From positions 1 through 64,000 of the IMG/VR virus record IMGVR_UViG_3300044638_006409: DNA of 64,000 nucleotides; one strand, given 5' to 3'. The notes beneath the pieces are model-generated. The model ran no database searches, was not told the origin of the DNA, and saw only the letters and a program-made list of their open reading frames with translations. The stretch is from a virus. The position numbers were made by a program, and so were the translations under genes. Below are positions 7,574-20,452 of the stretch, piece by piece. Numbering within the stretch: position 1 is the first letter of the stretch; each line of letters opens with the position of its first letter.

Positions 7574-10474
7574 TTAACGAACAGAATTAATCTTGTTCAT
7601 AATTTGCTCAATGAACTCCGCTCTATCAATATTGTCACCCATAACAGTATCAATAACATTCTTTTTATTAATTAACATATCATAGATAACACCTTCAATC
7701 GTATTATCAAATAGTGGGTAATAGACTGAAACACAATTCTTTTGACCATATCTGTATGCTCTATCCTCAGCTTGTTGGTGATGTGCGGGAACAAAAGATA
7801 GGTCATTAAATATAACAGCCTCGCCTGCAGTTAAAGTAATACCAACTCCTGCAGCTTGTAAATTACCAACAAAAACTTTTATTTTATCGTTATCTTGGAA
7901 TTGGTCAACCGCGTATTGTCTTTGGACTTTTGAGCAAGTTCCATCCAAATAAACAGCTTTCTTTCCAAAATGAGAATGAATCTTATGTAGAGTATCTGTA
8001 AAGTTTGTGAATATGATAACTTTTTTATTAAGTTCCAAAATATTCTCAACAACCTCAATTGTATTCAATATTTTTTCTTCAGCAATTACTTGTCTAACTT
8101 TCATCAATTTATTAAACTGAACTGTTAAAGACCTCGATTCATCAGGATGTTTATTATACCATTCGTAATACTCACCCATTAACTCTTCATACATTTTAGA
8201 TTTTAATCTAAGATAGATAGGTGTAATAATCTTTTCAGGTAAATCTAGTACATCCTCTTTTAATCTTCTTAAAACTTGTCTTGATGTCCTATCTCTTAAC
8301 TCTTCCAAGTTTGACGCCCCATTCACATTCCAAACCTTTCTATTACCCGCCTTAAATTGATATCCTTGACAATAACGGATAACATAAGCCATCCAATTTT
8401 GAGCAACAGGACTTTCAATTAGATTCAATAAATTATAATAGTTAATTGGTCTTGATGTCATTGGAGTTCCTGTCAATAACCAAAGATATTCAACATCCTT
8501 AACAAAACTATTAATTAATTTTGTTCTTTGAGCTTGGGGATTGGATATGTAATGTGCTTCGTCTATAATAACCAAATCAAAATTACCTTTTGTAATTGGT
8601 GAGTTTTCTTTGTCCTTTAAATCATAAAAGTTTTTAATAATGTCATAATTTACAATAACAAAGTCGTGTTCAGTTGAAAAGTTTTTACCCTCACAAATAT
8701 ACACACTTCTATCTGTATAATTTCTAATTTCCCTCTCCCAATTTATTTTAAGTGACGCAGGACATATTATTAATATTTTTTTAGCGCCAGTTTCTAATGC
8801 CGCTAAAATAGTTGATGTTGTATTGTGAGTTACGATAGCATTTTCTGTAACGTATAATTTGTCTGGTGCATCAACTGAAATACATACAGCTTCTCCTTTT
8901 TTTTCAAACTCTATGTTTTTGATATATCGTCCAACCTTGTATTTTTTAGGTGTGTTATATTGTTTTTCTTTTCTATTAAGTTTGAATGGATTCATACCTT
9001 CAGGTAATTTAATATTTACTCTGTACGATTTTTGTCCATCTTTCTTGATTCCTTTATGTGTATAGTTTGTTACTCTTGTTTTTTTTCTTGCTATACCCCC
9101 TAAACTATGTACTATTTCGATAACATCATCACAAAGTTGTTCTGACACAGTTGAGAATTCAGTTCCACTAAAATTACCATCAGTATCTTTATTACAACTA
9201 CCATCGGTATCCATTAACCCTTTCAGTATTTCTAATCTATTTTCAACAGAAGTATATTTGAATATGTTTGGAATAAATTTGTTATTAGATTTAGTTCCCA
9301 TTAATTCTAATTGCTTCAACACTTGAATCAACGGATTTAAATGACCACTAATTTTTGTTAATCTATAACCATATTTTGTACCTTTACTCTCGACTATTTG
9401 AGTATTATGTGGTAAAGTGTCTTTAATATAATCAACAATTTCTGAGTCAGCTGTTGTAAAATGAACAGAATCTTTACTAATTCCCCCATCGCCTATAATT
9501 AAACCCAACAAGTATGGATGTATGGGTAAAATAGTATCCATAAATTCAATAGGTTTTACAATTGGAATTTGCCATTTGTTGTTACCATCGTTTTCTTTGT
9601 AGTATGTTTTATATTTGTAAATTTTATTCACATTATTTTTTGTACCATTTATTTCCAAGTTCAACTTTTTATCCAACATCTGTTCTACAGATAAAACAAT
9701 CGCTTTTTTTTCTCTTTTATTTTTACTATTATCTCCAAATGACCTTGATTTTACGTTAAATAAATGTTCTTTACAAACTAAAATGGATGTGTTGTCATTA
9801 AATGTGACCCTATATAAATCTTTAATTCCTTGTGGATAAACACCAATTACATTACATTTTTTTCCATCACTACCAATAACTTCGTCACCAACTTTTAATT
9901 TACCGATTGGTTTTCTTCCATATGGGGTAAACACCCTATTTTCAACAAACTCAGCTTTTCCCAGCCCCATGTCGTCTGCTAAAATAAATCTTTTACTACC
10001 CACCAATTTTTCTATTGCGGTTCTTTGGTGTTCAAGTGGGGGTCTATGACTATATTTTGTATAATCTATTTTGACCTCTATTGTGTTATGTGTTTTTAAT
10101 AATGCGGCTTTAGGTAACCACATATCTGTCAATGTATCACCAGTATTAAATTTACCCCAAATATGGTATGATTTGTCTTTGTCTACCAATAACTTTTCAA
10201 CCCAAATATCAGTTGGTACTGATAACATATTTTTTTCATCAGCAATCTTGTTTGCAAAATATGGTTCCATATTAACCCACTTCTTTGCAACCTTTGGTTC
10301 AACAGAATGATAGTTGATAATATATTCAGCTTGGGAACGAGTGGGGTAAAACTTTTTATTAGTTTCTTTTAGGTATTTTAATTTTTGAATATAGTTATTT
10401 GTTCCCGAATAATTATCTAATATGTCGAGTGCTTTTAATTCAATAAGATTAGAGGTATTACCTGATATATTCAA
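7574..10474 (-). CDS. SNF2-family helicase/ATPase interrupted by an intein
   Basis: The precursor is 966 residues; removing the intein (residues 174-551) leaves a 588-residue SNF2-type ATPase. The extein has an N-terminal region, a Q-motif-like HQRTAIEKL, Walker A DDMGLGK/TTST (rejoined after splicing), motif Ia ICPASLKINWERE, DEAH box IIDEAH, motif III LLTGTPMTS and, in the second RecA lobe, IIFTNFTDTL and motif VI QAEDRAYRYGQ, which is typical of SNF2/SMARCAL1-like proteins. Such enzymes remodel forks or branched DNA; T4 UvsW fills a related role, but the motifs here are closer to SNF2. The start is a TTG at 10474-10472, since the nearest upstream ATG (10490) is out of frame. The gene diverges from the gp14-like gene and is followed after 5-23 bases by the SOD gene. 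Confidence 0.9.
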   Translation of the reverse strand: MNISGNTSNLIELKALDILDNYSGTNNYIQKLKYLKETNKKFYPTRSQAEYIINYHSVEPKVAKKWVNMEPYFANKIADEKNMLSVPTDIWVEKLLVDKDKSYHIWGKFNTGDTLTDMWLPKAALLKTHNTIEVKIDYTKYSHRPPLEHQRTAIEKLVGSKRFILADDMGLGKAEFVENRVFTPYGRKPIGKLKVGDEVIGSDGKKCNVIGVYPQGIKDLYRVTFNDNTSILVCKEHLFNVKSRSFGDNSKNKREKKAIVLSVEQMLDKKLNLEINGTKNNVNKIYKYKTYYKENDGNNKWQIPIVKPIEFMDTILPIHPYLLGLIIGDGGISKDSVHFTTADSEIVDYIKDTLPHNTQIVESKGTKYGYRLTKISGHLNPLIQVLKQLELMGTKSNNKFIPNIFKYTSVENRLEILKGLMDTDGSCNKDTDGNFSGTEFSTVSEQLCDDVIEIVHSLGGIARKKTRVTNYTHKGIKKDGQKSYRVNIKLPEGMNPFKLNRKEKQYNTPKKYKVGRYIKNIEFEKKGEAVCISVDAPDKLYVTENAIVTHNTTSTILAALETGAKKILIICPASLKINWEREIRNYTDRSVYICEGKNFSTEHDFVIVNYDIIKNFYDLKDKENSPITKGNFDLVIIDEAHYISNPQAQRTKLINSFVKDVEYLWLLTGTPMTSRPINYYNLLNLIESPVAQNWMAYVIRYCQGYQFKAGNRKVWNVNGASNLEELRDRTSRQVLRRLKEDVLDLPEKIITPIYLRLKSKMYEELMGEYYEWYNKHPDESRSLTVQFNKLMKVRQVIAEEKILNTIEVVENILELNKKVIIFTNFTDTLHKIHSHFGKKAVYLDGTCSKVQRQYAVDQFQDNDKIKVFVGNLQAAGVGITLTAGEAVIFNDLSFVPAHHQQAEDRAYRYGQKNCVSVYYPLFDNTIEGVIYDMLINKKNVIDTVMGDNIDRAEFIEQIMNKINSVR
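8822..9955 (-). other. Intein with LAGLIDADG homing endonuclease inside the Walker A motif
   Basis: A 378-residue in-frame intervening protein. It begins at Ala (AEFVENRVFTPYG, right after GLGK) and ends in VTHN before Thr (TTST); excision restores a perfect GLGKTT. Block A-like GKLKVGDEVIGSDG, block B CKEHLF, two LAGLIDADG helices (LLGLIIGDGG and LKGLMDTDGS), block F GEAVCISVD and block G ENAIVTHN are visible. The first residue is Ala rather than Cys/Ser, block F carries a Cys where Asp is usual, and block G carries Thr before His-Asn. These are features of class 3 inteins, which start splicing from the block F Cys. The Trp of the usual W-C-T triplet appears to be Phe. Both endonuclease acidic residues are present, so homing may be active. 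Confidence 0.93.
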
Positions 10475-12350: not shown

Positions 12351-15300
12351 ATGTCAAACAATAAAGTTTTCGTATCACCAGGTGTGTATACATCAGAAGT
12401 TGACTTGAGTTTTGTTTCACAAAGTGTGGGGGTTACTACACTTGGTATTGTGGGGGAAACTTTAAAAGGTCCAGCTTTTGAACCAATCTTCATTACAAAT
12501 TATGATGAATTTACAACTTACTTTGGTGGTACATCACCTGAGAAATTTGTAAATACACAAATACCTAAATATGAAGCAGCTTATATAGCAAAAGCATATT
12601 TACAACAATCAAACCAATTATTCGTAACTAGAATTTTGGGTCTATCAGGTTATGATGCAGGTCCTTCTTGGTCTATAACTACTATCGCTAATGTTGACCC
12701 TGCTACTATAGGTTTCGAGTGTTTAAGTGCAACTTCAGCAAATTGTGCAACACAATGTGTTTCATTTAATGTAACACCTTATACAATTAACTTCACTGGT
12801 TGTACTAATAGCTCAAGTACAATTGATTTTACATCAACGATACCTGGTTTCTTATCTGCTGACTTGGATAGTACATATGAACAATTCAATGGTTCGTTAT
12901 CTACCATAAAGTCTGATTTGGTAACTCAACTTTATGGTATTGTTAATACACCATCAACTTCTGCATCATCTATAAATTATTTCGGTACAATATCTGGTGG
13001 AACTTATGACACTTTGAGTGGTTATACCGCTGAGACCAATGTATTTGCGGTTGATAATGTTAGTTCAGATTTAGCAAACTTTTCAGCACCTACTAACGAC
13101 CCTTGGTACTATGCGACATTTGATAATATTGGTAACAACAATTATACAGGTTATTCTTTCTTTAGTTATGTTAGTAATTTAGTACAAACATCATCTAAAT
13201 CAAATTGTGCTTCATTCTATAGTTACACGGTTAGCTCGTCAACAATAAGTGCAATTACAGCTTCAATTAATTACAATACGAATACAATCAGTGTTTGTTT
13301 ACCAAGTACAGCCCAAACTTCTGATTATTCAGCAATGACAGTTGTATATAGTGCTTGTACTGACCCAATCTATAGTGGAATCACAAGTGGAGGTGTTGTT
13401 CAATCTTCAACTATGACTGGAGTTTCGTTTACGGCTTTAACAAAATCATATACTGTAGTTTCAGATGATTTGACAGCTACTTCAGCATGGACTGTAAATG
13501 TTACTATCAATGACCCTTGTAATGTATGTTCGACAGGTAATGTTGGAACTTTCCCAACACCAGTATTTACGAATTGTTTTAGTGGTACTGTATCAGGACA
13601 AACATTTATCTACACAGGTGATTCATTCTCAAATTATGATGATTTGGTTGTAGCAACACTTCGTTCGAGAGGTATAGCTACCTATACGACTGACACAGGT
13701 CCTGTTTACCAAGTTTCTAATGTAGGTGATGTGACTATTGATTGTACAGGAAGTTATTCAGGAATTTCTAAAAATCCTTATTCAACTTTTGCAATAGATG
13801 TAACCGACAAAGATGGTACTAACTATAGTTTCGAAACCTCATTCACTCTATCAGATCCTAAGTATATCTCTAAAGTTTTTGGTTCATCTAACTTTGGGAA
13901 ACCTAGAACAGTTGTACCATTGTTTGTTGAAGAACAATTTCAAAATCTTTTAAACTATGCTTATAGAAAAGGATACATTAGAGGTTTGAATTGTACTTTG
14001 AATGGGTTATCGGGTGCAAGACCTTATACTGACTTAACTTCTATAGCGTGGTATTTAGAACAATATCAATCAGCAACATCTCCTTGGTTGGTTTCTGAGT
14101 TGAGAGGTAATAAAGTTTACAACTTGTTCAAGTTCATAACTATTGCTGATGGTGATACTTCAAATGTGGAGGTAAAAATTTCTATTGCAAATATATCTTT
14201 CACAAATGGTACATTTGATGTATATGTTAGAGACTTTTTTGATTCAGACGCTGCACCTCAAGTATTGGAGAAATTTACTAATTGTTCTATGAATCCAAAC
14301 GAGAACAATTTCGTTGCTAAAAAAATTGGTACTTCAGATGGAGAATATCAACTTAACTCGAAGTTTGTTATGTTGGAAATGAACGAAGATGCACCAATAG
14401 ATGCTTTACCTTGTGGTTTCGAAGGTTATACATTCCGTGAATATGCGGGTTCGAAACCACCATTCCCAGTATACAAAACTAAATACGATTTTCCTGGTGA
14501 ACAAATTTACAATCCACCTTTCGGATTGAGTAGTGGTGCAGATGATGCTTTGTTAAGTTCAGGTGATAATGTTAGAAGAACATACTTAGGTATTGGTGAC
14601 TTCTATGGATATGATATTGACTTTTATACTTACAAAGGAAAAAGAATTCCAAGTTCACCTTGTACTGCAACTGTTGGTGATGATTGGGCTTACAAAACTA
14701 AGGGTTTCCATATGGATATAAATGCGAGTGGAATTACAATCTCCAATGGTTTTGCTTCAAGTGGTACTACAGCTTTCTTTGTTGGTGCAGCATCATTCAC
14801 TAATGACCCTGATAATGAAAGTAATCCATACTTCAGAATATTTGCGCGTAAGTTCAGTTTACTATGTAAGGGTGGTTTTGATGGTTGGGACATCTACAGA
14901 GAAAATAGAACAAACAAAGATACATTTGTATTAGGTAGAAGTGGTTACTTAAGGGGGGCTTGTCCTGATTTCAGGTATCCGAACGCAACTGGTTCAGGAA
15001 CATTTAAACAAATAAGTGTTGGTGATAATACACAAGATTATGCAAACTCTGATTACTACGCTTACTTGTTAGGTATTCAGACCTTCTCTAATCCTGAAGC
15101 GGTTAATATAAATGTTTTTGCAACACCTGGTATTGATTATGTTAATAATAGTGGTTTAGTTGAGGCGGCCATAAATATGGTTGAATTTGACAGAGCGGAC
15201 TCAATTTATATAACAACAACACCTGACTATAATTTATATACAGCTTCAGCAAATGATTCACAATTAATTATTTATCCACAAGAGGCTGTTGATAACTTAG

Positions 15301-15938
15301 TAACTGCGGGTATTGATTCGAATTACACCGCTACTTATTATCCTTGGGTTTTAACTAGAGATACGGTTAACAATACTCAAATCTATATTCCAGCAACTGC
15401 TGAGGTTTGTAAGAATCTTGCTCTAACTGATAACATAGCATTCCCTTGGTTTGCAGCAGCAGGTTACACTCGTGGTATTGTAAGTGCAATCAAAGCGAGA
15501 AAGAAACTTACTCAAGAGGATAGAGATACTCTTTATCAAGGAAGACTGAATCCAATTGCAACATTCTCAGATGTCGGAACGGTAATTTGGGGTAACAAGA
15601 CTATGCAAATTAGAGAGTCGGCACTTGATAGAATTAATGTTAGAAGATTGTTATTACAAGCAAGAAAACTTATATCAGCTGTTTCAGTTAGATTGTTATT
15701 CGAACAAAATGACGAAAAGGTAAGACAAGATTTCTTGGATGCGGTTAATCCAATCTTAGACGCAATCAGAAGAGACAGAGGTTTATATGATTTCCGTGTA
15801 ACTGTATCATCTGATCCTGCTGACTTAGATAGAAATCAATTAACTGGTAGAATCTACATTAAACCTACAAGAGCACTAGAGTTCATAGATATTACTTTCT
15901 TCATAACACCAACAGGTGCATCATTTGAGAATATCTAA
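12351..15938 (+). CDS. Contractile tail sheath protein (T4 gp18-like) with a large inserted domain
   Basis: Forms the contractile sheath around the tail tube. The N-terminus (SPGVYTSEVDLSFVSQSVGV, then GIVGETLKGPAFEPIFITNY and YFGG) and the C-terminal 250 residues (FPWFAAAGYTRGIV, LNPIATFSDVGTVIWGNKT, NVRRLLLQARKLIS, then GRIYIKPTRALEFIDITF) are the conserved sheath core that builds the polymer and its interlocking arms. At 1195 residues it is nearly twice T4 gp18 (659). Roughly residues 107-490 are a Ser/Thr/Cys-rich, beta-type insertion with repeats such as SGGTYDTLSGYTAETN and ITSGGVVQSSTMTG, which should project from the sheath surface. The core resumes near residue 502 (DPKYISKVFGSSNFG). 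A strong terminator follows. Confidence 0.95.
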   Translation: MSNNKVFVSPGVYTSEVDLSFVSQSVGVTTLGIVGETLKGPAFEPIFITNYDEFTTYFGGTSPEKFVNTQIPKYEAAYIAKAYLQQSNQLFVTRILGLSGYDAGPSWSITTIANVDPATIGFECLSATSANCATQCVSFNVTPYTINFTGCTNSSSTIDFTSTIPGFLSADLDSTYEQFNGSLSTIKSDLVTQLYGIVNTPSTSASSINYFGTISGGTYDTLSGYTAETNVFAVDNVSSDLANFSAPTNDPWYYATFDNIGNNNYTGYSFFSYVSNLVQTSSKSNCASFYSYTVSSSTISAITASINYNTNTISVCLPSTAQTSDYSAMTVVYSACTDPIYSGITSGGVVQSSTMTGVSFTALTKSYTVVSDDLTATSAWTVNVTINDPCNVCSTGNVGTFPTPVFTNCFSGTVSGQTFIYTGDSFSNYDDLVVATLRSRGIATYTTDTGPVYQVSNVGDVTIDCTGSYSGISKNPYSTFAIDVTDKDGTNYSFETSFTLSDPKYISKVFGSSNFGKPRTVVPLFVEEQFQNLLNYAYRKGYIRGLNCTLNGLSGARPYTDLTSIAWYLEQYQSATSPWLVSELRGNKVYNLFKFITIADGDTSNVEVKISIANISFTNGTFDVYVRDFFDSDAAPQVLEKFTNCSMNPNENNFVAKKIGTSDGEYQLNSKFVMLEMNEDAPIDALPCGFEGYTFREYAGSKPPFPVYKTKYDFPGEQIYNPPFGLSSGADDALLSSGDNVRRTYLGIGDFYGYDIDFYTYKGKRIPSSPCTATVGDDWAYKTKGFHMDINASGITISNGFASSGTTAFFVGAASFTNDPDNESNPYFRIFARKFSLLCKGGFDGWDIYRENRTNKDTFVLGRSGYLRGACPDFRYPNATGSGTFKQISVGDNTQDYANSDYYAYLLGIQTFSNPEAVNINVFATPGIDYVNNSGLVEAAINMVEFDRADSIYITTTPDYNLYTASANDSQLIIYPQEAVDNLVTAGIDSNYTATYYPWVLTRDTVNNTQIYIPATAEVCKNLALTDNIAFPWFAAAGYTRGIVSAIKARKKLTQEDRDTLYQGRLNPIATFSDVGTVIWGNKTMQIRESALDRINVRRLLLQARKLISAVSVRLLFEQNDEKVRQDFLDAVNPILDAIRRDRGLYDFRVTVSSDPADLDRNQLTGRIYIKPTRALEFIDITFFITPTGASFENI

Positions 15939-17006: not shown

Positions 17007-17495
17007 ATGGCTGATTTATTGATGAAAATGCCCATACCTTATGAGCCGAAAAGACAGAATAGGTTTATTATGAGATTTCCTTCCTCATTAGGTATTAATG
17101 AATGGTTTGTTGAATCCGCTTCAAGACCAACAATAACTGTTAATAGTACACCAATCCCTTTCCTAAACACTGAAACATATGTTGCTGGTAGGTTTACTTG
17201 GGGTACTATAAATGTGACATTGAGAGACCCAATCGGACCTTCCGCAACTCAAGCAATTATGGAATGGATTCGTTTGTGTGCTGAGTCTGTAACAGGTCGT
17301 ATGGGTTATGCCGCTGGTTATAAAAGAAATGTTGATTTGGAAATGTTAGACCCAACAGGTGTAGTAGTTGAAAAATGGATTATGGAAGGTTGTTTTATAA
17401 CTTCTTCAAACTTTGGTAACTTAGGGTATGCACAAGATGCTTTAGCAACAATTCAAATTACATTGAGACCTGACCGTTGTATTTTAGTTTACTAA
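17007..17495 (+). CDS. Tail tube protein (T4 gp19-like)
   Basis: Makes the inner tail tube through which DNA passes. Its 162 residues match T4 gp19 (163). The pattern is characteristic: an N-terminal RQNRFIMRFPSSLGI strand, PTITVNSTPIPFLNTETYVAGR, then W-x-T-I-N-V-T-L-R-D-P-I and ATQAIMEWIRLCAES, and the closing strands LEMLDPTGVVVEKWIMEGCFI and ALATIQITLRPDRCIL. It follows the HAD gene and precedes the chaperone-like and tape measure genes, the usual tail-module order. A terminator hairpin lies 21 bases after the stop, matching a need to express tube protein at a high level on its own. Confidence 0.93.
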   Translation: MADLLMKMPIPYEPKRQNRFIMRFPSSLGINEWFVESASRPTITVNSTPIPFLNTETYVAGRFTWGTINVTLRDPIGPSATQAIMEWIRLCAESVTGRMGYAAGYKRNVDLEMLDPTGVVVEKWIMEGCFITSSNFGNLGYAQDALATIQITLRPDRCILVY

Positions 17496-17516: not shown

Positions 17517-17547
17517 AACCCCATACAATAATGTGTGGGGTTTTTAT
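17517..17547 (+). terminator. Terminator after the tail tube gene
   Basis: AACCCCATAC (17517-17526) pairs with GTGTGGGGTT (17533-17542; one T-G pair) around a 6-base loop, followed by a T-run. Confidence 0.88.
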
Positions 17548-17588: not shown

Positions 17589-18344
17589 ATGGACAGAGAA
17601 TTATTAGAAGCGGCAACCTCGAACTTTAATTTACCGCATGATGTAGTAAAACTACCTACGAATGGTATTTTTTATAAAAGTAAAAAAAAGTCAATCAAAG
17701 TTGGATACCTTACTGCAAGTGATGAAAATTTATTGGTGAATGCCAGAAATTCTAACAACAATGTAATAATTTCTTTGTTGAGGAATAAAATCTATGAACA
17801 CGACATTAAACCTGACGAGTTATTAGAAAGTGATATTCAAGCTATTTTAATTTTTCTGAGAAACACTTCATTCGGTCCTGAATACACCTTGAGTTTAGTT
17901 GACCCAAGAACAGAAAAATCATTTGAGGTTACAATATTATTAGATGAATTAAATTTAACTAAGTGTGAATACAAACCTGACGAAGATGGAACATTTACAA
18001 TTAAGTTACCTAGAAGTGGTGACACCTTAAAAGTTAAACCACTTACTATTGGTGAATCAAATGAATTGGAAAGTTTATCGGAGAATTACCCACAAGGTAG
18101 AGTTACCCCAATTATTACTTGGAGACTTAATAAAATGATAGTTTCAATAAATGGGAACGATGATAGAGGAATGATATCCACATATGTTGAGACTATGCCA
18201 ATTATGGATTCCAAATTCCTTAGAGTCTTTGTTAAAGACAATACACCAAGTTTAGACTTAAGAAAAACAGTAAAAGCCCCATCAGGAGAACTGGTGACAT
18301 TCAATGTCACATTTGGGGTCGACTTTTTTCGCCCTTTCTTCTAG
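17589..18344 (+). CDS. Baseplate hub/tape-measure-associated protein, T4 gp26-like
   Basis: A 251-residue protein resembling the T4 gp26-type baseplate family: an N-terminal LPTNGIFYKSKKKSIKVGYLTASDENLL (compare LPS-G...Y-PF...EE-LL), a helical stretch NVIISLLRNKIYE with ESDIQAILIFLRNTSFGPEYTL, then beta-rich FEVTILLDEL, TIKLPRSGDTLKVKPLTIGES and a final conserved helix-strand part. It sits between the tube and tape measure genes, where many phages place tape measure chaperones. Its last 41 bases overlap a second reading frame starting at 18304, and the run CTTTTTTCG at 18323-18330 lies in that overlap, so part of the product may be extended by a +1 or -2 frameshift. That is inferred. Confidence 0.7.
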   Translation: MDRELLEAATSNFNLPHDVVKLPTNGIFYKSKKKSIKVGYLTASDENLLVNARNSNNNVIISLLRNKIYEHDIKPDELLESDIQAILIFLRNTSFGPEYTLSLVDPRTEKSFEVTILLDELNLTKCEYKPDEDGTFTIKLPRSGDTLKVKPLTIGESNELESLSENYPQGRVTPIITWRLNKMIVSINGNDDRGMISTYVETMPIMDSKFLRVFVKDNTPSLDLRKTVKAPSGELVTFNVTFGVDFFRPFF

Positions 18345-18486
18345 TTATAGTAAGTATTTGTTGGATGAATTCTTTTTGTTGGCTAAACATCTTAGAATAT
18401 CTTATACAGAATTTAATACTATACCTACCTATGTGAGAAAATATTTAATCAATAAAATCATAGAAGTTAACACTAATGAGGACTGA
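18304..18486 (+). CDS. Overlapping small ORF, candidate frameshift extension / tape-measure chaperone
   Basis: A 60-codon frame shifted +1 relative to the gp26-like gene, entered either from its own ATG at 18304 or by ribosomal frameshift in the overlap. The product beyond the overlap (SYSKYLLDEFFLLAKHLRISYTEFNTIPTYVRKYLINKII) is helical and hydrophobic, like the second part of G/GT-type chaperones and like small T4 gp51-type assembly factors. The stop codon lies in the stem of the following terminator. Its place directly before the tape measure gene fits a chaperone role. The frame's amino acid pattern looks real; how it is translated is not settled by the sequence. Confidence 0.65.
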   Translation: MSHLGSTFFALSSSYSKYLLDEFFLLAKHLRISYTEFNTIPTYVRKYLINKIIEVNTNED

Positions 18487-18506
18487 AAAATAAATCAGTC
18501 CTTTTT
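18479..18506 (+). terminator. Terminator before the tape measure gene
   Basis: AGGACTGA (18479-18486) pairs with TCAGTCCT (18495-18502), loop AAAATAAA, then a T-run; the upstream arm contains the stop codon of the preceding ORF. Confidence 0.85.
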
Positions 18507-18507
18507 G

Positions 18508-18515
18508 TATTTATA
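18508..18515 (+). promoter_or_regulatory. TATTTATA motif, candidate promoter of the tape measure gene
   Basis: Part of TATTTATAAATA, 14 bases before the ATG at 18530 and directly after a terminator. Confidence 0.5.
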
Positions 18516-18529
18516 AATAAAAGAATTTT

Positions 18530-20452
18530 ATGGCAGGACCTAATCCAGATACAAACCCAGGAGGTGATTTTTTCCAAAAAATATTTGACTCAGGTTTAAA
18601 ACCTTGGTTTGATAAGTTTTTGGACTATGTTAATACAAACTTTGACGAAAGTAAGATTAGAAAAGTTTTATACGACACTGAGGTATCTTCCACAAATGTT
18701 TTGAAAACATTTGGTGTTGGTAGGGAAAGAATGGTTGACATCAGAAGTACAATGAGTGACGCTGTAGCAAGTGTTGTGGAATTGGGTGGAGAATTTTCAA
18801 ATATTGAAAACGCACAATTAGGTGTTTCACAAGCATTAAAAAGAAATGTTGTTTTAACTTCAGATTCTTTCAGAGAAATATATGCCTTATCAACACAAAC
18901 CAACAAAGAAATAAGTACTGTTGTAACTAATTTCAAAGATGTTGGTATTTCTGTTTACCAAATGGGTGATAAAGTGAATGAAGCTTTAGCTGTAAGTGCA
19001 AAGCTTGGTGTGAATGCTAGTGAGGTGATTGATACTATGTTAAACAATATGAGTACACTTAACAAATTTAATTTCGAGGGTGGGACTGAAGGTTTAGCTA
19101 GGATGGCAGCACATGCAACCTCTCTGAGATTTGATATGAAAGAAACTCTAAACTTAGCTGAAAAAGTTTTCAATCCAGAGGGTGCGATACAAGTTGCTGC
19201 AGCTATGCAAAGATTGGGTGTTGCACAATCAGACTTATTAGACCCACTGAGGTTAATGGATTTGTCACAAAATGACCCTGAAGAACTTCAAAAACAACTC
19301 GAACAAATGAGTAAAAGTTTTGTGAAGATGAAAGCGGATGGTACATTCGAAATATTACCAGGTGAAAAAAGAAGATTAAGAGAGATTGAAGACCAATTAG
19401 GAATGACTCAGGGTTCTTTGGCCAAACTTGCATTGAGTTCGAAAGAGGTTGACGAGAAAATGAAAAAAATTAGATTTGGTGGTGAATTTTCGGAAGAGGA
19501 ACAAAGATTTATCGCAAGTATTTCTGAAATCGGAAAGGGTGGTGATATGAGGATTAGACTAGATGGTGAAAACTTGGGTATAGATCAAGCTTTAGAGAAG
19601 TTCAGACAAGACCCCGATAAGTTGAAAGAAATAATGAAACCCAAAACGGCCGAGGACTTAGCAAAAGACCAATTGACAACACTAAAATCAATTGAAAAAT
19701 CTATGGAAACCTTGGCAAATAGAACTGGTTATGCAATGGCTGGAACCCCAGCAGTAACCGAATTTGAAAATGCACAAAGAAGATTAGCCGCATTAATACC
19801 AAGAATGGGAGAAGCACCAGGTTTGAAAACTGAGGACATACGAAAAGATTTATTTGGTACATTTGAACAAATGTTGACAGATGTTAGTGAAGGTAAAACG
19901 AGTATGAAGGATTTTGCAATAAACTTTTCTGAGAAAATGGAGGCGTATGGTAATAAATTAGGTAAATTCCCTGAACACACTGTTGAAGTTATCTCAAAAT
20001 TAGATACGAGCTCAAATAGATTTTTAAAGTTAGGTGAGGATATAATTGGATTAACTACAGAGTTGAAAAGTGCTGGTTTTCCTTCCTTGACAGCAGCACT
20101 TAAACAATTAATTAAAGCTGACATACCAAAACCCAACTCTGCTGAAGCAAAAGACTTCGAATTAAAGTTATTACCTATGGACACCGTGAAATTAGTTGGG
20201 GGAACTCACGAATCATTAAGGGAGGGTGGAACAAGCATGCCTACAAAAATGGAAATCCAACTAACACATAAAGTTGAAATTGATACAACTAAGAGTCCAC
20301 AACTGAATACTTCAGAGTTAAAACAAAGTTTGAAGACTGCCGATGTTGCTGATGCTGTACGAAGAGCTGTTGAGGATTCTATGAAAAGTTTTGGAAAAAC
20401 TGGTAAGCAACCACTTTTGGGTAATGATACAAGTGTTATTAAGAAACCATAA
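18530..20452 (+). CDS. Tail tape measure protein
   Basis: Sets tail length and is threaded in the tube lumen. The 640-residue product is largely alpha-helical, with long stretches of heptad-like sequence and the tape-measure style segments SVVTNFKDVGISVYQMG, ALAVSAKLGVNASEVIDTML, GLARMAAHATSLRFDMKETL and GAIQVAAAMQRLG. The N-terminus is Gly/Pro/Asn-rich; the C-terminus ends in a basic flexible tail (LLGNDTSVIKKP). T4 gp29 has 590 residues for a tail of about 100 nm, so this gene predicts a T4-like tail length. It follows the gp26-like/chaperone-like pair across a terminator and starts with its own TATTTATA motif. Confidence 0.87.
   Translation: MAGPNPDTNPGGDFFQKIFDSGLKPWFDKFLDYVNTNFDESKIRKVLYDTEVSSTNVLKTFGVGRERMVDIRSTMSDAVASVVELGGEFSNIENAQLGVSQALKRNVVLTSDSFREIYALSTQTNKEISTVVTNFKDVGISVYQMGDKVNEALAVSAKLGVNASEVIDTMLNNMSTLNKFNFEGGTEGLARMAAHATSLRFDMKETLNLAEKVFNPEGAIQVAAAMQRLGVAQSDLLDPLRLMDLSQNDPEELQKQLEQMSKSFVKMKADGTFEILPGEKRRLREIEDQLGMTQGSLAKLALSSKEVDEKMKKIRFGGEFSEEEQRFIASISEIGKGGDMRIRLDGENLGIDQALEKFRQDPDKLKEIMKPKTAEDLAKDQLTTLKSIEKSMETLANRTGYAMAGTPAVTEFENAQRRLAALIPRMGEAPGLKTEDIRKDLFGTFEQMLTDVSEGKTSMKDFAINFSEKMEAYGNKLGKFPEHTVEVISKLDTSSNRFLKLGEDIIGLTTELKSAGFPSLTAALKQLIKADIPKPNSAEAKDFELKLLPMDTVKLVGGTHESLREGGTSMPTKMEIQLTHKVEIDTTKSPQLNTSELKQSLKTADVADAVRRAVEDSMKSFGKTGKQPLLGNDTSVIKKP

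Follow-up and report, generated by a model that had tools for sequence, protein, structure and literature searches.

The 3′ end of a gp26-like gene in IMG/VR record IMGVR_UViG_3300044638_006409 overlaps a small open reading frame (ORF) in another frame, which raises the question of whether two genes or one gene with two products are present. The sequence analyzed, here called the window, comprised positions 1 to 64,000 of this 120,655-base contig; features of the gp26 locus are on the plus strand. The gp26-like gene (17589 to 18344) encodes 251 amino acids in the zero frame and ends in GGG GTC GAC TTT TTT CGC CCT TTC TTC TAG, with the TAG stop at 18342 to 18344. The small ORF (18304 to 18486; 60 amino acids from its ATG at 18304 to 18306) lies in the +1 (equivalently −2) frame. 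A preliminary description of this DNA had proposed a frameshift between the two, and the out-of-frame overlap of 41 bases and the zero-frame stop on which it relied were confirmed from the ORF coordinates. It had also placed a slippery sequence at 18323 to 18330; the T run is present (18324 to 18329), but the C-TTTTTT-CG sequence around it spans 18323 to 18331. Read in codons, this stretch is GAC TTT TTT CGC (18321 to 18332).

Upstream of the gp26-like gene is a tail tube gene identified by profile match (gp19-like; 17007 to 17495; phrog_4542, 2.4e−31), with a terminator-like hairpin at its 3′ side (17517 to 17542). A second terminator-like hairpin covers the stop of the small ORF (18478 to 18503). 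The neighbor previously named as the tape measure gene does exist (18530 to 20452; 640 amino acids), but it is tape-measure-like by position and length only, and its product had no match in profile searches. A T4-late-like motif, TATAAATA, precedes it (18512 to 18519); this T4-late-promoter-like motif occurs 38 times in the contig against 22.9 expected. Elsewhere in the window, a helicase-like ORF on the minus strand (7574 to 10474) has an apparent intein-like insert, with a Walker A GLGK followed by several hundred residues that include LLGLIIGDGG and end in VTHN before TTSTILAALETG. The tail sheath gene (12351 to 15938) encodes 1,195 amino acids, with known sheath domains in the last 300 residues only.

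The 251-amino-acid product belongs to the family of T4 gp26-like tail-assembly chaperones, of which it would be the short form (TAC-N). It matched PF12322 T4_baseplate (3.9e−10, 40.2 bits; cut-off, 24.5) and phrog_150 (5.3e−12), and the PF12322 match was the only one in the 120,655-base record, which may be incomplete. For structural modeling, the short form and the extension encoded in the second frame were folded separately, each from an unchanged reading frame. The AF2 model of the short form (pLDDT, 83) had T4-like baseplate hub and hub-assembly proteins as its best named BFVD matches, with a TM score of up to 0.79 for phage SP-15, consistent with the family fold, and comparison with the PDB gave no matching solved structure. 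The extension alone was modeled as three helices (pLDDT, 90.8).

Relatives were collected to ask whether the second frame is maintained. Scanning IMG/VR with the window protein gave 383 encoding stretches; the 80 best were used, and further IMG/VR loci came from one alignment-based scan and two scans with divergent members. The first set of relatives held 158 loci with the complete region, representing 85 haplotypes and 54 lineages below 90% gp26 identity; the divergent relatives added 41 haplotypes. In all 158 complete loci (85 haplotypes) from the first two scans, the +1 frame was open across the gp26 stop in the same frame, and both frame and site were kept in the 41 additional haplotypes. 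Conservation of the overlap and of the T run had been proposed earlier as a check: the overlap was retained in every complete locus, but the run was broken to TTC TTT in 8 of the 114 distinct IMG/VR haplotypes used for the site and stem tallies. Judged from these alignments, the overlapping ORF pair is not a product of chance.

The extension also behaves as coding sequence. It has a consensus of about 50 residues (LSSNYRQxLIEEYYxLxKFxRTSYSDFxxMPTYxRKYLINRIIEDNTP), and in its non-overlapping part the median dN/dS was 0.33, compared with 1.13 and 1.33 in the other two frames, where 4.7 and 7.0 stops were found on average. By this comparison, the extension is under purifying selection. An out-of-frame tail can be left by gene decay, as when an old in-frame fusion is broken by an indel; a decayed tail would gain stops, however, whereas this frame remained open at a dN/dS of 0.33 across the 54 lineages, which leaves a nonfunctional overlap with almost no probability.

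If the small ORF were a separate gene, it would need its own start, at ATG 18304 or TTG 18313, or re-initiation after the gp26 stop. The ATG is present only in the lineage of the window and a few others, and it is probably not used. Most haplotypes have a +1-frame TTG before the site (18313 in the window), but this follows from the TTT GGG retained in the zero frame: lineages with TTC in place of TTT lack it, and in the GTA lineages a TAG separates it from the site. In these lineages (L127, L157, L194, L237, and L257), the +1-frame TAG stands just before GAN TTT TTT CGN, two codons before the slip site. No start column was conserved among the first 16 codons of the extension in the alignment of relatives, and in three lineages (L025, L127, and L162) the first ATG, GTG, or TTG did not come until 94 nucleotides (nt) after the slip codon, within the domain. 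Shine-Dalgarno (SD)-like motifs, moreover, precede only 2 of the 75 ORFs of at least 150 amino acids in the contig. A strong start of the small ORF that is conserved in relatives had been set beforehand as the observation that would tell against frameshifting; such a start was looked for, and none was found. On comparison of relatives, an internal start at ATG 18304 or TTG 18313 was therefore rejected, and a separately initiated gene is considered quite improbable.

The scarcity of SD-like motifs suggests a host whose translation does not depend on SD pairing, such as a member of the Bacteroidota. A scan of genome contigs for the host found no relative, and tRNA scans for the same purpose found no tRNA.

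With both frames coding and no start codon conserved across the aligned relatives, a programmed frameshift that makes two products from 17589 to 18486 is the favored reading, with a probability of roughly 90%. A pair of the G/GT type, as the preliminary description had envisaged, is supported by the missing conserved start, the dN/dS of 0.33, and homology of the extension to −1-frame extensions in other phages (below). As in lambda G/GT, a conserved shift site lies near the end of the short form and the extension is coding in another frame.

The +1-frame stop of the GTA lineages restricts the slip to GAN TTT TTT CGN CCT TTC TTC TAA. Within this stretch, the putative shift site is UUU_UUU_CGC (18324 to 18332), with UUU at 18327 to 18329 in the P site, re-pairing +1 to UUC (18328 to 18330), and CGC in the A site. 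The P-site codon was TTT in all 114 haplotypes. The A-site codon was CGN in 113 (CGG, 60; CGC, 33; CGT, 11; CGA, 9) and CTA in the remaining one, so that an in-frame UUU_CGN inside the overlap with the +1 ORF was conserved in 113 of 114. Of all sense codons, CGC and CGG occur least often in the contig (6 and 3 times, respectively, among 36,603 codons), a rarity from which slow decoding would be expected, as at known UUU_CGN +1 sites; elsewhere in long ORFs, the two together account for 6 of 1,736 Arg codons. The preference for CGG and CGC may come partly from the overlapping frame, in which the variable base is the second position of a Gly, Ala, Val, or Asp codon. Only one other in-frame TTT_CGN match was found in the contig, in an ORF antisense to the tape-measure-like gene, which leaves the shift site as the sole case in a plausible gene.

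The earlier expectation that the shift would be +1 or −2 rather than the common −1 was borne out and can be narrowed. The extension is in the +1 frame, not the −1 frame, in the relatives, and the X_XXY_YYZ pattern of −1 sites is absent from nearly all haplotypes, in which G, A, or C precedes the run. A −2 shift of the kind known from phage Mu, here on the U6 run, reaches the same frame, and UUU_UUU permits −2 re-pairing; Listeria phage LIS04, with UUU_UUU_AGU, may use it. However, 8 of the 114 haplotypes have UUC_UUU_C, where a −2 shift would put tRNA-Phe on UCU, and UUU_C is kept in all 114. These haplotypes argue for +1 over −2, and a −2 shift is regarded as unlikely to a high degree. They also bear on transcriptional slippage on the T6 run, which would yield a mixed mRNA population: the run is present in the window and most relatives, but the eight haplotypes keep the overlap with only T3, and constraint falls on UUU_CGN and the upstream stem described below rather than on run length, making this explanation extremely improbable. 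A slip at CCU_U was weakened by CCG replacing CCT in two lineages (L143 and L153). On the sequence evidence, a +1 shift at UUU_CGN is the best-supported and most likely mode.

A +1 slip on 18327 to 18329 would join 247 residues (17589 to 18329) to 51 (18331 to 18483), giving a predicted fusion (TAC-NC) of 298 amino acids that ends at TGA (18484 to 18486) and would be conserved in the 114 distinct haplotypes. The added part (TAC-C; 18331 to 18486 with its stop) agrees with the roughly 52 helical residues anticipated earlier, being 51 residues by +1, or one more (an extra Phe) by −2, modeled as three helices. The predicted trans-frame peptide of the +1 fusion, APSGELVTFNVTFGVDFFALSSSYSK, joins ...GVDFF to ALSS..., and the −2 version has FFF.

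Folding of the region indicated an RNA element upstream of the site. Run unprompted, RNAalifold paired columns 18 to 23 with columns 58 to 63 of alignment A2, corresponding to a 5′ arm at 18275 to 18280 (A-GCCCC) and a 3′ arm at 18315 to 18320 (GGGGU-C) that ends 6 nt before the P-site codon. Across the alignment, 95.1% of stem cells were paired, compared with 90.8% in shuffled alignments, with none of 500 shuffles as high; covariation was 0.176 compared with 0.115, a value likewise not reached in 500 shuffles, and both figures ignore the kinship of haplotypes. Pairing was far lower in slid control versions. The five inner pairs were intact across the 114 haplotypes except for one cell, and the outermost pair alternated between C-G and A-U (P = 5e−5 by permutation within amino acid classes, ignoring phylogeny). 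In one lineage (L139), the C-G to A-U double change is synonymous on both sides. The outermost pair of the window itself is an unpaired A-C, its five inner pairs are intact, and the stem folds at −18.5 kcal/mol (z, −2.7). Folding of the downstream sequence gave no sign of a stimulatory structure (z, +0.3 and +0.4).

An SD-like stimulator at the GGGG was also considered and is disfavored by the 2-of-75 count of SD-like motifs, given which the stem explains the GGGG better. The stem is thus a well-supported RNA feature of the alignment, with a probable role in slippage. With the P site on UUU, however, its 3′ arm would sit within the ribosome or where the mRNA leaves it, a point that counts against the proposed reading. 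The loop (18282 to 18288) reads UCNGGAG almost invariably, synonymous positions included (GGA codon, 53 of 54).

Frameshifted tail-assembly chaperones usually shift −1, and sites of this kind were seen in other gp26 phages. U_UUU_UUC or U_UUU_UUU near the gp26 end, together with a −1-frame extension, was found in XacN1, LR756511, CM1, Phosso, PA5oct, Atu_ph07, XaC1, PBECO4, GAP32, Serratia BF, Vibrio 2.275, Munch, RaK2, SCTP-2, and C48C1. In isolated jumbo phages and cyanophage C48C1 (L082, 5753 to 5998; L166; L169 to L176), the −1 extension is labeled either a separate hypothetical ORF or a "baseplate hub assembly catalyst," or has no annotation, and it mostly has no start in the overlap. A search of viral contigs with XacN1 gp26 gave no match.

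The +1 extension of the window is homologous to these −1-frame extensions (hhalign, 95.5%; E value, 1.5e−8, pairwise). The −1 fusions in turn matched T4 gp51 (95.3%; 2.2e−8), and the −1 extension matched the gp51 C terminus (86%; 5e−6); compared directly with gp51, the window extension gave no significant match, and the link runs only through the −1 group. The −1 genes of jumbo phages and cyanophages (XacN1, RaK2, PA5oct, GAP32, and C48C1) thus resemble the window gene in a predicted slip on Phe-Phe codons near the gp26 end and in a homologous extension; they differ in a −1 site on U_UUU_UUC/U, whereas the window clade would shift +1 on UUU_CGN, and almost none of its haplotypes has a U ahead of the run.

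Extensions in the +1 frame were also found in Bacillus phage SP-15 (UUU_CAC), Streptococcus phage GXN1 (UUU_CGU), and the uncultured LR756508 (UUU_CUA). All three have UUU_C at the site and lie near the window clade in the tree, but each is a single sequence, and some have possible start codons. In the short-form tree, +1 users grouped together, but LR756511, a −1 user, joined them (fork support, 86/86). Listeria phage LIS04 (L177 2209) carries its UUU_UUU_AGU at the homologous site, with a +1/−2 extension and a possible −2 slip.

The role of gp26 (TAC-N) and gp51 (TAC-NC) as T4-like tail-assembly chaperones has been published before (Vladimirov, Gautam and Davidson 2022, Virology 566:9-15, as cited in PMC10885494 and PMC12846349), and polyT signals in T4-like TAC-N genes are mentioned in PMC12846349. 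Both T4 proteins are full PF12322 members (8.8e−64 and 3.9e−52). They share with the window pair the family, a common N-terminal part in short and long forms, and an extra C-terminal domain in the long form; T4, however, uses separate paralogous genes, and the window has one gene with a predicted +1 shift. Vladimirov and coauthors reportedly noted that frameshifting persists in several T4-like groups.

UUU_CGN is the established +1 site of influenza A PA-X and the plant amalgaviruses (PMC3498833, PMC5052127). The P-site and A-site motif, the rare CGN codon, and the overlapping +1 ORF are the same, but those are RNA viruses of eukaryotes, translated by eukaryotic ribosomes, whereas the window gene is a tail gene of a DNA phage and has a stem ahead of the site. 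A review lists shifts of −1, −2, and +1 for tail genes, "except T4" (Atkins 2016, PMC5009743). Among structural or tail-assembly genes of phages, shifts that reach the +1 frame include those of Listeria phage PSA and SPP1 (+1, structural genes), haloarchaeal HSTV-2 (+1, tail assembly), and Mu gpGT (−2) (PMC5009743, PMC3498833). PSA slips on a proline codon and Mu is −2, and neither the gp26 family nor UUU_CGN is reported for these four in the same two papers. No report of UUU_CGN in a phage chaperone gene was found in the literature searched, which took in only a minority of subscription papers.

The events at this locus, as we infer them with respect to the occurrence, direction, and efficiency of the slip, the action of the stem, and the roles of both products, would be as follows. 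The region from 17589 to 18486 would be one gene with two products. Most ribosomes would stop at 18342 and release the 251-amino-acid short chaperone. A minority would be held up with UUU (18327 to 18329) in the P site by the CGC that follows, one of the rarest codons of the phage, and the P-site tRNA could re-pair +1 onto UUC (18328 to 18330) while CGC waits in the A site. The product would be the long chaperone with the added three-helix C-terminal domain. The stem just upstream would be part of the signal and may refold behind the ribosome, biasing it forward. If the two forms divide their work as lambda gpG/gpGT and T4 gp26/gp51 do, coating of the tape measure protein would fall to the short form and recruitment of tail tube subunits to the long form.

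What appears to be new is the +1 UUU_CGN signal with an upstream stem in T4-like chaperone genes, together with a switch of shift direction between lineages. It is an even bet whether many T4-like phages carry a distinct bacterial recoding class, in which UUU_CGN is combined with a stem that refolds behind the ribosome, independently of the RNA viruses, and the same Phe-Phe codons have switched between −1, +1, and gene duplication. In PMC10885494, the developers of the PRFect predictor note that forward shifts still lack an identified general motif; such genes are therefore apt to appear in annotations as a short gene with a hypothetical ORF beside it, or with none. Under a UUU_CGN rule that takes in the upstream stem, the long form could be recovered when many T4-like phages are annotated, and the series of −1, +1, and duplication would offer a natural system in which to follow the evolution of recoding signals at a single site.
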